From Spiroplasma sp. TIUS-1 (GTDB lineage: Bacteria > Bacillota_I > Bacilli_A > Mycoplasmatales > Mycoplasmataceae): a DNA stretch of 64,000 nucleotides. Below the pieces are notes generated by a model, which worked only from the letters and a program-made list of their open reading frames with translations, did not search any database and had not been told where the DNA came from. The position numbers and the translations under genes were made by a program. Where the stretch lies: contig NZ_CP048387.1 in the NCBI RefSeq assembly GCF_010365785.1, positions 434,001 through 498,000 on the forward strand. The letters are read 5' to 3'. Below are positions 22,701 to 57,763 of this stretch, one piece after another. Position 1 is the stretch's first letter, and the number at the start of each line of letters is the position of its first letter.

Positions 22701-22885
22701 AAAAAAAACGTTCCTAATTAAAGGAACGAATTTCTCCGCGGTACCATCCTAATTGACCTTTTTATAGATCCACTCAATACTTATTAAATTTTTATTTAAT
22801 CAACCTTCAAGTAGTTATCATATCAACTCACACCGACCGTTGATTCTCTGAAAAGATAAATTACCTTACTCCTATTAAACATTTA
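22701..22885 (-). promoter_or_regulatory. T-box riboswitch of valS
   Basis: On the minus strand a leader holds the conserved T-box core AGGATGGTACCGCGG (22736-22750). It is followed by an intrinsic terminator, CGTTCC (arms 22709-22714 and 22723-22728) with eight U residues (22701-22708). Upstream, stem I begins near 22880 with an AGTA loop-E sequence and contains AGAGA; TTAAT and ATTAA can close its base. A GTT triplet at 22802-22804, on the 3' side, is a candidate valine specifier. Binding of uncharged tRNA-Val would prevent termination. Confidence 0.9.
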
Positions 22886-53491: not shown

Positions 53492-53839
53492 TTATTTTCC
53501 TTGCTTATTTGCTTTAATAATATCTTCTATTCTATTTGCTGTCTCTAATGCTGTATCATATTCAAATGACAATTCAGGCATAACTCTAGTATTAATTTTC
53601 TTTGCTAATAAACCGCGTAAGTATCTAGAATGTTTTTTAATTTCTTCTTCAACATTTTTTATGTTTACATCTTGAAGTCAAATAGAATAATAAACTTTAG
53701 CAATTCTTTTATCAGTAGTAAGTCTAACTTCATGTATTGAAATCTTATCCATATATTTTGAATTAGGAAATTCTCTATTTAACATTAAACCAAGATATTT
53801 CATAATTTCAGCTTGTAAGCGTTCTGTTTGTACTGACAT
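53492..53839 (-). CDS. rbfA: Ribosome-binding factor A
   Basis: A 115-residue KH-type protein for 30S maturation. It begins MSVQTERLQAEIMKYLGL and has the conserved KISIHEVRLTTDKRIAKVYYS and a helix with RYLRGLLAKKINTRVMPELSFEYD. Length is normal. One TGA codes Trp. Its ATG overlaps the infB stop (TAATG), the usual infB-rbfA arrangement. Confidence 0.95.
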
Positions 53840-55722
53840 TATTTTTTTACCACTTCTAATTTAAATGACTCAATTGTGTCACCTTCTTTAATATCATTAA
53901 AGTTTTTAATTGTAAGTCCACATTCAGTTCCTTCACGTGCATCTTTAATATCATCTTTTTTGTTTTTTAAAGACGAAAGTTCACCCGTAAAAATTACAAT
54001 TCCATCACGCAATAGATGAATTTTTCCAGAGCGCGGAATTGATCCACTTGTAATTCTACATCCAGCAATTGTACCAATGTCGGTATGTTTAAATGTTGCC
54101 CTCACTTCAGCTTCACCTAAAGTAATTTCTTCATATTCTGGTTCCAATAACCCATCTGCAAGTTCTTCAATTTCCTCAATTAATTTATAAATAATGTTAT
54201 GCAATCTAATTGAAACACCATCTTCTTCAGCTTTTGTACGAACTTGAGCAGTTGGTCTAACGTTAAATCCATAAATAATAGCTTCAGATGCTGCTGCCAA
54301 AGTTACATCTGTATTTGAAATGGCACCCACTGTTGCTCTAACAATATTTACCTTAACTTTTTCAAAATCTAGTTTTTGCAGCGAACCTTTAATTGCTTCA
54401 ACTGTTCCTTGTGTGTCAGATTTAATAATTATATTTAATGTCTTTAATTCACCAGATTCAATTTGATTTTTAATTGAATCTAAACTGAACTGTTGAGATT
54501 TCATTCTAGCTTCTTCGTTGATTCTAAGTTCTTGAGCTTCAGATACTTCTCTTGCTAGTTTATCATTTGCTAAAACCATAAATTTATCACCAGCTCTTGG
54601 AACTTTATTTAAACCAAAAACAACTACAGATTTTGAAGGTAGAGCTTCTTTTATTTGTTTTTTATTTTCATCTTCTAAGTATCTAACTGTTCCAAAAGAA
54701 CCACCAGCAACTATAGTATCTCTAGAGTGCAAAGTTCCTGATTGAACTAAAACAGTTGCTATAGGACCTCTCGATTTATCCAATTTTGCTTCAAGAACAA
54801 CTCCACGGGCATAAGAAGTAGGATCTGCTTTATATTCATTTAATTCAGAAATTAATAAAATTGTTTCTAATAATGTATCTAACCCCATAGATGTTCTGGC
54901 GCTTCCCTCCACAAATGGAGTATCTCCTCCAAATTCTTCAGCAATTAATTCATAAGCCATTAACTCAGATTTGATTTTTTCTGGGTTTGCTCCAGATTTA
55001 TCCATTTTATTTACAAAAACAATAATTGGTACTTTTGCAGCTTTTGCATGGTCAATAGCTTCTTGTGTTTGAGGCATAATTCCGTCATCAGCTGCTACAA
55101 CCAAAATAACTATGTCAGTAACACTACTTCCACGTGAACGCATTTCTGAAAATGCCTCATGACCTGGGGTGTCAATAAATGAAATTATTTGTCCATTGTG
55201 CTCAACTTGATAAGCACCAATATGTTGTGTTATACCTCCAAATTCACCTTCAACAACATTTGCATGTCCCTTTCTAATTGAATCTAGCAAAGTAGTTTTA
55301 CCGTGATCTACGTGTCCCATGATTGTTACTATTGGTGGTCTTGGCTTTAACTTGGCAGGATCAATTTCTTCTTCAAAAGTATCTAAAAGATTTGCAGTTG
55401 TAACTTGAGTTTCTTTTTTAAAGTCATAACCATATTCAAGACATAACTCACCCATCTGCTCCTCAGTTAAAAGTGCATTTTGATTCATTATTTTACCCTG
55501 CATAAAAAAGTATTTAACAACTTCAGCTGGTGTTTTATTTATTTTTTGTGAAAAATCAGCAATTGATAGATTTTCTGTAAATTTAAAAACCCCATCAACT
55601 ATACCAGTTGTAACTTTCTCTTTAAGTTGTGATTTCAAAGTGTTAGATTGTTGTTTTGATTTTTGTTTAGACGCAACCTTACTATGATTTACTTTTGCTT
55701 TTGAATTATTATTTTTTGCCAT
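53839..55722 (-). CDS. infB: Translation initiation factor IF-2
   Basis: A 627-residue GTPase that recruits initiator tRNA. A Lys/Ser/Gln-rich N-terminus is followed by the IF2-N domain (SQKINKTPAEVVKYFF). G-domain motifs are G1 GHVDHGKT, G2 GGITQHIGAY, G3 DTPGHEAF, G4 VNKMD and G5 GSARTSMG. The four-domain core is complete up to EGTECGLTIKNFNDI. The short N-terminus is typical of mollicutes. The start MAKNNNSKAK at 55722 has GGGAGAG upstream; an ATG at 55737 lies inside that ribosome site's context and has none of its own. Confidence 0.97.
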   Translation of the reverse strand: MAKNNNSKAKVNHSKVASKQKSKQQSNTLKSQLKEKVTTGIVDGVFKFTENLSIADFSQKINKTPAEVVKYFFMQGKIMNQNALLTEEQMGELCLEYGYDFKKETQVTTANLLDTFEEEIDPAKLKPRPPIVTIMGHVDHGKTTLLDSIRKGHANVVEGEFGGITQHIGAYQVEHNGQIISFIDTPGHEAFSEMRSRGSSVTDIVILVVAADDGIMPQTQEAIDHAKAAKVPIIVFVNKMDKSGANPEKIKSELMAYELIAEEFGGDTPFVEGSARTSMGLDTLLETILLISELNEYKADPTSYARGVVLEAKLDKSRGPIATVLVQSGTLHSRDTIVAGGSFGTVRYLEDENKKQIKEALPSKSVVVFGLNKVPRAGDKFMVLANDKLAREVSEAQELRINEEARMKSQQFSLDSIKNQIESGELKTLNIIIKSDTQGTVEAIKGSLQKLDFEKVKVNIVRATVGAISNTDVTLAAASEAIIYGFNVRPTAQVRTKAEEDGVSIRLHNIIYKLIEEIEELADGLLEPEYEEITLGEAEVRATFKHTDIGTIAGCRITSGSIPRSGKIHLLRDGIVIFTGELSSLKNKKDDIKDAREGTECGLTIKNFNDIKEGDTIESFKLEVVKK

Positions 55723-55742
55723 ACCATTCTCTCCCATTTTTG

Positions 55743-56045
55743 CTAATTTTGGTTTATATTTTTTTCAATTAATTTTGTTATGTTTAAATCATTAAAGCCT
55801 ATTGCTGCAACTTTTTTGCCAGCAAATTGACTTTGGATTTGTTCAATAGTCAACATACTTTGAATAAGTTTTATTTCATAAAATTTGCATTTATCTTCAA
55901 GTCTTTTTAAAGTTGAAGATCCAATTCCTGTAAAGACAATAACCAAATATATTTTTTTAGATTTTATTTGTTCAAGTAATTTGTCACCTATTGCATACTT
56001 ACCTGAAGAATATGCCAAACCAAATGCGTTAATTAAACTATTCAT
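55743..56045 (-). CDS. L7Ae-family ribosomal-type protein (YlxQ)
   Basis: A 100-residue L7Ae/L30e-fold protein, the YlxQ member of the nusA operon. It has NAFGLAYSSGKYAIGDKLLEQIKSKK, shown by SSGKYAIGDK, then LVIVFTGIGSSTLKRLEDKC and KVAAIGFNDLNIT. The ATG at 56045 overlaps the ylxR stop (TAATG) with GAGG just before it; a TTG at 56054 is less likely. It probably binds RNA kink-turns; its role with infB is not established. Confidence 0.88.
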   Translation of the reverse strand: MNSLINAFGLAYSSGKYAIGDKLLEQIKSKKIYLVIVFTGIGSSTLKRLEDKCKFYEIKLIQSMLTIEQIQSQFAGKKVAAIGFNDLNITKLIEKNINQN

Positions 56046-56317
56046 TAACCTCAATTTTCCTTAATTTCATTTTCAATTAAAATATAAATTTCTTCAGATA
56101 ATTTTGTTTTAAGTGATCTTTCTAATTGTCTAGTTTTTTTCACTTTAGATAAAGAATCAAATGATGCTTTTAAATAAACCCCACGTCCATTTGCTTTACC
56201 AGTTGGATCAATAAATATTTCTCCAGCCTTATTTTTCACAATTCTTATCAATTCTACCTTTGGTAGCATTTGATTAGTTGAAACTTCTTTCCTTAATATT
56301 ATTCTTTTATCTTCCAT
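56045..56317 (-). CDS. ylxR: YlxR (RnpM) family RNA-binding protein
   Basis: A 90-residue DUF448 protein. Family signatures: IILRKEVSTNQMLPKVELIRIVKN and GKANGRGVYLKASFDSL, where GRGVY is the signature loop. Some members modulate RNase P. The Cys-containing K(I/P)LRKC(V) of other members is replaced by LRKEVST. It overlaps the end of nusA by 11 bases and ends with Trp(TGA)-Gly-stop overlapping ylxQ. Confidence 0.9.
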
Positions 56318-57443
56318 TTCTTCTATTATTTAAAAACGATTTAGAAACTAACTCATCTTCAGATAAATTACCATTTCAGTGAATTTTTAGACTTTGTTCA
56401 TTTGCTTGATCAAATGATAGTATGTTGATTTTCATTCCTACTAAGTTAGCAACTAATCTTGCTGCCATACCCCTTTTACCAATTGCCAATGAAATTTGTT
56501 CAGTTGGTACAATAACAGTAGCTTCATTTGCTTCTTCATTAACTTCAATACTTATAGTTTTCACTGGAGATAACGCATTAATAATGAATTCTTCCTTGTT
56601 TTCTTTTCATAAGATAACATCTATTTTTTCATCCTTTAATTCTTCAGTTACAACTTTAATTCTTGAACCCATATTACCAACACAGGCCCCTACAGGATCG
56701 ACATTTGAGTCGTGTGAAAATACAGCAACTTTAGCTCTAATACCTGGTTCACGTGAACATGCTTTAATTTCAACAATTCCCTCTTGAATTTCTGGAACCT
56801 CAAATTCCATTAATTTTTCAAGGAATTTTGGATGAACTCTTGAGCCTTGAACTTGTGAGTGTTTATTTTCTTTACTTACTTCTTCAATAAATAATGAAAT
56901 TCTATCCCCTTCATTAATAACTTCTCCAGGTATTATTTTCTTAATTCATAAAGGTAATACAACACCGTTAACTTCAATAAAGAACATTGTATCTGTAATA
57001 TCTTTAACCACTCCTCCAACTATTGTTTGGTTTAATGGTTCAAATTCTTTAAAAACAACATCCTTTTCTGCTTCTCTAATTTTTTGTTTAATAATTTGTG
57101 CAACTTGTAATGATGCAGTTTTTGAAAATTTTTCATTAAACTCAACAGGTTCATAAACAGTGTCACCAATTGTAACATTGCTTCCATATTTAGCTTTAGC
57201 TTCATCTAATAAAATGTCCAATCATTCATCTTCTATTTTTTTAACTACATTCATTTCTTTAAATACTTTTATTTGACCCATATTTTGATCAATATCAACT
57301 CTAACTATTGCTTCAGGGTCAAAATGTTTTTCATAAGCTCTTTGAAAACCTTCTTTAATTCCCTCAAATATTATTTCTTTGTCTATTTTCTTTTCCATGC
57401 GTAGAACATCTAGCGCATCTAATAATTCTTTTCCATCTATCAT
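56307..57443 (-). CDS. nusA: Transcription termination/antitermination protein NusA
   Basis: A 378-residue NusA. N-terminal RNA-polymerase-binding domain (MIDGKELLDALDVL...), S1 domain (about 135-200, VVKDITDTMFFIEVNGVVLPLW), then KH1 and KH2 with CSREPGIRAKVAVFS, VGACVGNMGSRIKVV and AIGKRGMAARLVANLVG. The acidic AR repeats of E. coli are absent, as normal for Firmicutes. GGAGG precedes the ATG. First gene of nusA-ylxR-ylxQ-infB-rbfA-rsmE. A terminator hairpin ends only about 20 bases before its start; no rimP gene lies in front. Confidence 0.96.
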
Positions 57444-57456
57444 TTTTTTATTCCTC

Positions 57457-57486
57457 CAAAAATGAAAGAAGGCTTACGCCTTCTTT
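57457..57486 (-). terminator. Terminator or attenuator immediately before nusA
   Basis: On the minus strand AAAGAAGGC, loop GTAA, GCCTTCTTT is a perfect 9-bp stem followed by CATTTTT. It lies between the 69-residue gene and the nusA ribosome site (57453-57457), leaving no room for a promoter between hairpin and nusA. Confidence 0.8.
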
Positions 57487-57514
57487 GGTTTATAATTTAT
57501 AATCTTTGCAGTTA

Positions 57515-57724
57515 TTATCAAGGCTTGATAACTTCTCTACATAGATCAATGAAATCGGCTACGATTTCAATGTTTGGCAATCCTGCCATACCAACGTTAT
57601 GGTTTTTACTTGTTACTCATATAACAGCTTTTCCAGTTTCTTTTCTAACTAATTTAAATGATTTTTCTGTGTTTTCAACGTTGAAATCACTACCTCACTT
57701 ATCTAAGAATTGATCTTGACTCAT
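57515..57724 (-). CDS. Small hypothetical protein upstream of nusA
   Basis: A 69-residue soluble protein, complete only with three TGA Trp codons (the last residue before the stop is one). Sequence features: MSQDQFLDKWGSDFNVENTE, KLVRKETGKAVIWVTSKN and GLPNIEIVADFIDLCREV; mixed alpha/beta, no known family recognised. GGAGA precedes the ATG, and TATAAT on the minus strand at 57749-57754 is a likely -10. It is the only gene between that promoter and the pre-nusA terminator. Confidence 0.72.
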
Positions 57725-57748
57725 TTTTATATCTCCATATACATTTGT

Positions 57749-57754
57749 ATTATA
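57749..57754 (-). promoter_or_regulatory. -10 element before the 69-residue gene / nusA operon
   Basis: TATAAT within TGTATATAATACAAATG on the minus strand, 25 bases before the ATG at 57724. It may drive both the small gene and, by read-through, nusA. Confidence 0.5.
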
Positions 57755-57763
57755 TACATATAA

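Follow-up and report, generated by a model that had tools for sequence, protein, structure and literature searches.

A putative NusA-responsive attenuator ahead of the nusA operon in Spiroplasma sp. TIUS-1 and its relatives, proposed as a variant of the rimP-leader

The window analyzed here, that is, the whole stretch of 64,000 nucleotides taken from Spiroplasma sp. TIUS-1 (contig NZ_CP048387.1, positions 434,001 to 498,000), carries on its minus strand a nusA operon of five genes preceded by a small open reading frame and a short hairpin. The genome measures 811,521 bases and reads TGA as tryptophan; its RimP_N match is located ~21 kb from nusA, and rimP does not begin the operon. The features discussed below are, in the direction of transcription:

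57749..57754, minus strand: TATAAT, possible upstream -10 element ahead of the 69-codon reading frame (sequence)
57515..57724, minus strand: 69-aa open reading frame with TGA read as Trp, no Pfam match (reading frame and homologue search)
57514..57519, minus strand: GATAAT, weak candidate -10 element, 27 nt before the stem (sequence)
57496..57501, minus strand: TATAAA, weak candidate -10 element, 9 nt before the stem and near the position of the perfect TATAAT of the sister genome G051 (sequence)
57465..57486, minus strand: putative attenuator (terminator) hairpin, 9 bp with a GTAA loop (sequence, terminator scan, fold, conservation)
57458..57467, minus strand: interrupted U-tract TTT-CA-TTTTT, the initial TTT doubling as the end of the stem (U-tract comparison)
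57453..57457, minus strand: Shine-Dalgarno element GGAGG of nusA (sequence)
56307..57443, minus strand: nusA, 378 aa under translation table 4 (Pfam NusA_N and KH_5)
56045..56317, minus strand: ylxR (Pfam YlxR)
55743..56054, minus strand: ylxQ-like gene of the L7Ae type (NCBIfam E 7.6e-8, under the family cut-off)
53839..55737, minus strand: infB (by eye from the translation)
53492..53839, minus strand: rbfA (Pfam RBFA)

The perfect 9-bp stem occupies minus-strand positions 57486-57465 and consists of AAAGAAGGC, the GTAA loop and GCCTTCTTT, with G-C at four of its nine pairs; CATTTTTGGAGGAATAAAAAAATG follows directly 3' of the stem, with a T5 run at 57462-57458, then GGAGG at 57457-57453 and the nusA ATG at 57443. 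Sequence and terminator scan thus bear out an earlier note on this DNA, which had described a perfect, GC-containing hairpin of 9 bp with a T run in front of nusA, touching its ribosome site, since the U-tract directly adjoins GGAGG. The spacing of about 20 bases to the ATG given there holds for the end of the hairpin (21 nt), while the T run ends 14 nt before the ATG. The gap of 7 nt between the stem and the Shine-Dalgarno element is too small to hold a promoter, so ordinary nusA mRNA must traverse the hairpin, and this geometry upholds the further claim that the nusA operon depends on read-through.

A terminator scan of 3 kb matched this hairpin alone, once per strand, where shuffled sequences are expected to give 0.5 matches, and the fold of a 91-nt region has a z score of -2.99, an equal stability being reached by 1 of 200 shuffles. 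Under looser criteria, the window together with 140 kb more of the genome holds 22 comparable hairpins whose distance to the following start is at most 75 nt; proximity to a start codon is therefore not rare by itself, and it is the comparison with relatives that carries the case. A second hairpin at the start codon of the window, predicted from weak pairing of a U-run with an A-run, was dropped, being absent from the consensus fold of the genus with 20 genomes (g9).

NusA was detected in all 60 genomes of the family. In 25 of them, the window's genome included, nusA opens the operon (two genomes of genus g1, to which the window belongs, one each of g4, g5 and g6, and 20 of g9), and in the remaining 35 rimP lies ahead of nusA. 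The 140 nt before the first operon gene were scanned by script, with 100 dinucleotide shuffles per genome. Terminator-like hairpins were flagged automatically in 53 of the 60 genomes, against 1.03 expected from the shuffles; in one of these (G021) the flag was misplaced, falling within the rimP region, and a covariance-model search supplied the true hairpin. In the seven unflagged genomes (G005, G006, G014, G016, G019, G022 and G024) the hairpin was found by eye, having failed the tail or pair rule or the choice of start codon. By script, eye and model together, a hairpin stands ahead of the leading gene of this operon in 60/60 genomes, and the comparison with relatives that the earlier note had proposed as a check favors the hairpin described there, with covariation in addition.

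The covariation was assessed in an alignment of 58 leaders, G016 (whose hairpin string the script did not locate) and G021 being left out. Across the nine pairs, 97.5% of the cells hold a standard pair compared to 79.3% in shuffles, and both sides are changed in 82 cells compared to 21.8, either figure being reached by 0 of 500 shuffles. When the partner is shifted by 1-3 columns, pairing falls to 40-64%. Within genus g9 alone the sequence is strongly kept, with small variation and a double change in one pair, and the consensus fold of its 20 leaders is the hairpin alone, with no larger element or antiterminator. An outer helix, UGUCA...UGACA, visible in several g9 leaders was rejected, as its downstream half is missing in 3 of 20 and the consensus fold contains only the hairpin.

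A covariance model of the 58 leaders places the operon leader at the top in at least 48 of the 60 genomes among the matches listed, another place outscoring the leader in nine genomes and three genomes being absent from those matches; the model was built from the same leaders, so this result shows just the scarcity of competing places. Twelve of the strongest off-leader matches were examined; all carry an uninterrupted U5-U8, and most of them lie at gene ends.

The tail of the hairpin sets these leaders apart. An interrupted U-tract, which after the final non-U base of the 3' arm reads U3-4, one other base and then five positions with three or more U, is present in 57/58 leaders vs 6/109 gene-end hairpins, in a set of related, non-independent genomes and with a pattern defined after inspection of the sequences. 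These controls come from the window and seven further stretches of the same genome, plus thirteen stretches of two relatives. Likewise, the longest U-run is no longer than 4 in 56/58 leaders vs 33/109 controls, the two exceptions being the window itself (U5, past the break) and G005 (uninterrupted U7), and when each genus is represented by a single median, the U-run lengths still differ (P = 0.0006). Interruptions of the U-tract have been reported for NusA-dependent terminators, and the window leader is in this regard a putative suboptimal terminator of the kind found in the NusA-autoregulated leader of the B. subtilis type. For 88% of 1,400 terminators in B. subtilis, help comes from NusG, either by itself or together with NusA, and an interrupted tract is therefore no proof of NusA control.

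With respect to the promoter, the earlier note had pointed to the TATAAT at 57749, which is indeed present upstream of the 69-residue gene; it is not the sole candidate, as GATAAT and TATAAA lie downstream of it. Among the 52 genomes whose hairpin was flagged automatically (G021 dropped), 39 have a perfect TATAAT that ends 13-29 nt upstream of the stem, where shuffles expect 3.9, and it is distributed over the genera as 7/7 in g7, 6/8 in g8, 19/20 in g9, 3/3 in g10, 2/4 in g12 and 1/2 each in g1 and g2, with none in g3, g4 and g11. Of the two g1 genomes, that of the window lacks a perfect TATAAT at the usual distance, and its sister G051 has one 13 nt before the stem. Thus, transcription solely from 57749 through the 69-residue gene, as the earlier note had assumed, does not fit the arrangement of most relatives, although the upstream TATAAT at 57754-57749 may contribute to nusA transcription in the window. 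As read from these genomes, the usual design is a putative promoter followed by a short leader, the hairpin and the operon. Because the putative promoter of most relatives stands directly before the hairpin, a transcription start within 57487-57514 would agree with attenuation, as in Streptococcus agalactiae.

Between the -10 element and the hairpin, all 20 g9 leaders share without change the TCA of a GTCA motif that closely follows the -10 (e.g. L007:1390-1503), and GTCA is also present at a similar position in g5 and g10.

The family also allows the hairpin to be followed where rimP and nusA are apart. RimP_N was matched in 58/60 genomes; the rimP of G021 gave no family match, and none was found in the draft genome G006. 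In genomes in which nusA comes first, the gene preceding nusA is not rimP, G004 being the exception, and rimP is often found behind a polC-like end (by eye). In G004, rimP adjoins nusA on the upstream side and the hairpin is located between the two. When 20 of the 24 separate rimP genes were inspected over 150 nt for a hairpin of at least five pairs with three G-C, 19 had none; the rimP starts were set automatically, and a few of them (G000, G038) may lie upstream of the true start, so that some tens of bases escaped the scan. The one exception, in G031, is a hairpin 76 nt upstream, with a straight U-run and directly behind the preceding gene. In a NusA tree of 28 rows, two changes are needed for the nusA-first layout, of which well-supported branches force one. 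The hairpin therefore travels with nusA rather than with rimP, across one or more separations, and this association favors NusA over RimP as the regulator.

As a separate observation, rimP is seemingly broken in some g8 genomes (G021 (L053), G019, G025 and G026), with in-frame stops or no family match, and the leader hairpin is kept there.

Taken together, we consider it probable that the nusA-ylxR-ylxQ-infB-rbfA operon is controlled by transcription attenuation at this hairpin, with NusA feedback. Polymerase would start just upstream of the hairpin, or read in from the small gene, and would transcribe the hairpin and the interrupted U-tract; part of the complexes would then terminate at the hairpin while the remainder would continue into nusA. 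Since suboptimal terminators are aided by NusA, more NusA would give more termination, and we propose that NusA balances its own operon in this manner. Termination in the cell would accordingly be partial, at a level set by NusA. The autoregulation put forward in the earlier note is thus likely right in kind, its dependence on NusA being a prediction.

It is an unlikely alternative that the hairpin, as an attenuator or as a partial terminator of fixed strength, determines operon expression with no feedback by NusA, albeit one with which all the structural and comparative results agree just as well. The interrupted U-tract and the association with nusA over rimP are predictions of NusA feedback, and a precedent of NusA autoregulation is reported for B. 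subtilis in the review PMC12288461.

It is very unlikely that the hairpin acts on the mRNA rather than on transcription, be it as a 5' stabilizer, as an RNase site or in translation control by way of the Shine-Dalgarno element. GGAGG lies 7 nt from the hairpin of the window and weak U-A pairing is predicted around the start, as such a role would have it, but among relatives the distance from the hairpin to nusA varies from 19 to 65 nt while the promoter spacing and the U-tract are kept, and nothing equivalent to the start-codon pairing is seen in the consensus fold of g9.

The possibility that the hairpin is a plain 3' terminator of an upstream unit, here the 69-aa gene, squeezed against nusA, is highly improbable. 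It would agree with the 28 nt that separate the stop of the 69-aa reading frame from the hairpin, and 3' terminators near the next start are common in this genome. However, the hairpin is kept with many different upstream genes, which in nusA-first genomes include, by eye, DJ-1/PfpI, nicotinamidase-like and lipoprotein genes among others (only the DJ-1 of the window was profile-tested), and in three genomes (G029, G042 and G044) the first gene above 150 aa on the upstream side lies on the opposite strand; from this it follows that the hairpin is not the 3' terminator of a neighbor. Moreover, its tail is unlike that of gene-end terminators, and nusA transcription would still have to cross it. 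As for the 69-aa protein itself, no Pfam and no meaningful NCBIfam match was obtained, and homologues were found in four other genomes of the 60, at the same place in G051, the sole other genome of the genus, and elsewhere in G037, G047 and G036; the reading frame was not found before nusA in other genera.

That RimP rather than NusA is the regulator is hardly credible: rimP heads the operon in most bacteria, as stated in PMC2965389, and RimP could still act in trans, but wherever the two genes are separated it is nusA that has the hairpin, and 19/20 inspected rimP genes lack one.

Beyond the family, NusA is present in 107 other genomes of the order, of which 20 were examined. A hairpin at most 130 nt before nusA is present in 17 of these 20, with other stem sequences (weakly in G107, and in 5/5 genomes of family f9). 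In G087 and G132 a reading frame of rimP length stands ahead of nusA, with hairpins of uncertain role only at a greater distance upstream, and for G064 no hairpin was reported. The covariance model of the family scores these further genomes weakly at best, and for this reason we infer common descent across families from place and layout only. Among 12 scanned Bacillota-type loci, a hairpin of the GAGUGGG type precedes the gene ahead of nusA in seven, several of them with a similarly broken tail, e.g. UUUCCUUUUG; none of this type was found within 900 nt in Amphibacillus (two loci), Halolactibacillus (two loci) and L117. Place, layout and tail suggest that the leader of the window is homologous to the rimP-leader of Bacillota.

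Rfam gave no match for the window at the gathering threshold that concerned the leader or any other place, nothing relevant for the leader region and 17 loci of relatives (E up to 5) and nothing relevant for three Bacillota loci with the canonical motif (E up to 1). RF01770, the gammaproteobacterial rimP leader, has 16 weak matches in this genome, none of them at the leader (cut-off 47 bits), with a sensitivity such that the cut-off was passed in only 1 of 14 control genomes.

Elsewhere in the window, another attenuator is seen as a T-box leader at 22719-22885 on the minus strand, with a terminator hairpin at 22709-22728 and a valS-like gene (by eye) downstream; its score of 90 bits (E 1.8e-20) falls short of the cut-off of 93, and it is thus missed at the Rfam gathering threshold.

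Few regulators are known in Mollicutes. That an attenuator is kept before the nusA operon in 60/60 genomes suggests that the balancing of NusA is among the few circuits which these bacteria retain. On balance, we lean towards a wider reading, in which a minimal module of promoter, ~12 nt, hairpin and interrupted U-tract follows nusA across Mollicutes when gene order breaks, which would be comparative evidence that NusA alone, not RimP, controls a very widespread attenuator, near-minimal genomes keeping the loop. For annotation, caution is advisable, as a promoter directly before such a hairpin can mimic a non-coding unit. Two papers state that Mollicutes have no Rho. In the open-licence literature, no paper on this leader in Mollicutes was found, and the main texts of PMC5138195, PMC4245973 and PMC7745072, which deal with promoters or transcript ends of Mollicutes, mention neither nusA nor rimP.

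Among known systems, the closest is the rimP-leader of Naville and Gautheret (2010; PMC2965389), in that article's account the most ubiquitous predicted attenuator, described as a short hairpin of rimP-nusA-infB operons, 4-130 nt from the gene, with a GGGc/gCCC stem and no antiterminator, for which NusA is named as the best candidate regulator and RimP as the alternative; its main text does not name Mollicutes or Mycoplasma. The element of the window resembles it, as there described, in being a terminator-like hairpin with a U-stretch in the 5' UTR of a nusA-infB operon, in its distance from the gene start, which falls in the range of 4-130 nt, in having a G-richer 5' arm and in showing no visible antiterminator, and differs from it in that the first gene is nusA, not rimP, and in a stem of AGGC(...)GCCU instead of GGGc(...)gCCC; within the family, this motif has a near match in G006 only, GGGG(...)CCC. 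In B. subtilis, autoregulation by NusA-stimulated termination in the leader is reported in the review PMC12288461, and NusA-stimulated intrinsic termination in the 5' leader would likewise gate the gene in the window; the B. subtilis rimP transcript has a leader of 180 nt according to PMC2965389, whereas the hairpin of the window, known here from sequence, adjoins the ribosome site of nusA. For the rimP-nusA leader of S. agalactiae, the relevant section of PMC4448216 reports termination 31 nt after the start and proposes NusA feedback, and its very short promoter-hairpin layout is like that of the relatives and the window, although the S. agalactiae operon retains rimP as its first gene. RF01770 concerns the same operon and the same kind of control, with a model that has no match to the window leader. 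As place, layout and tail fit, while the rimP-first order and the exact GGGc/gCCC motif are absent and RF01770 gives no match, the element is best described as a putative variant of the rimP-leader. Both attenuation by the rimP-leader and NusA autoregulation are already published; what is added here is that the hairpin stays with nusA when rimP is elsewhere, so that the separation of the two genes amounts to a natural experiment on which protein the hairpin answers to, a question that PMC2965389 left open.
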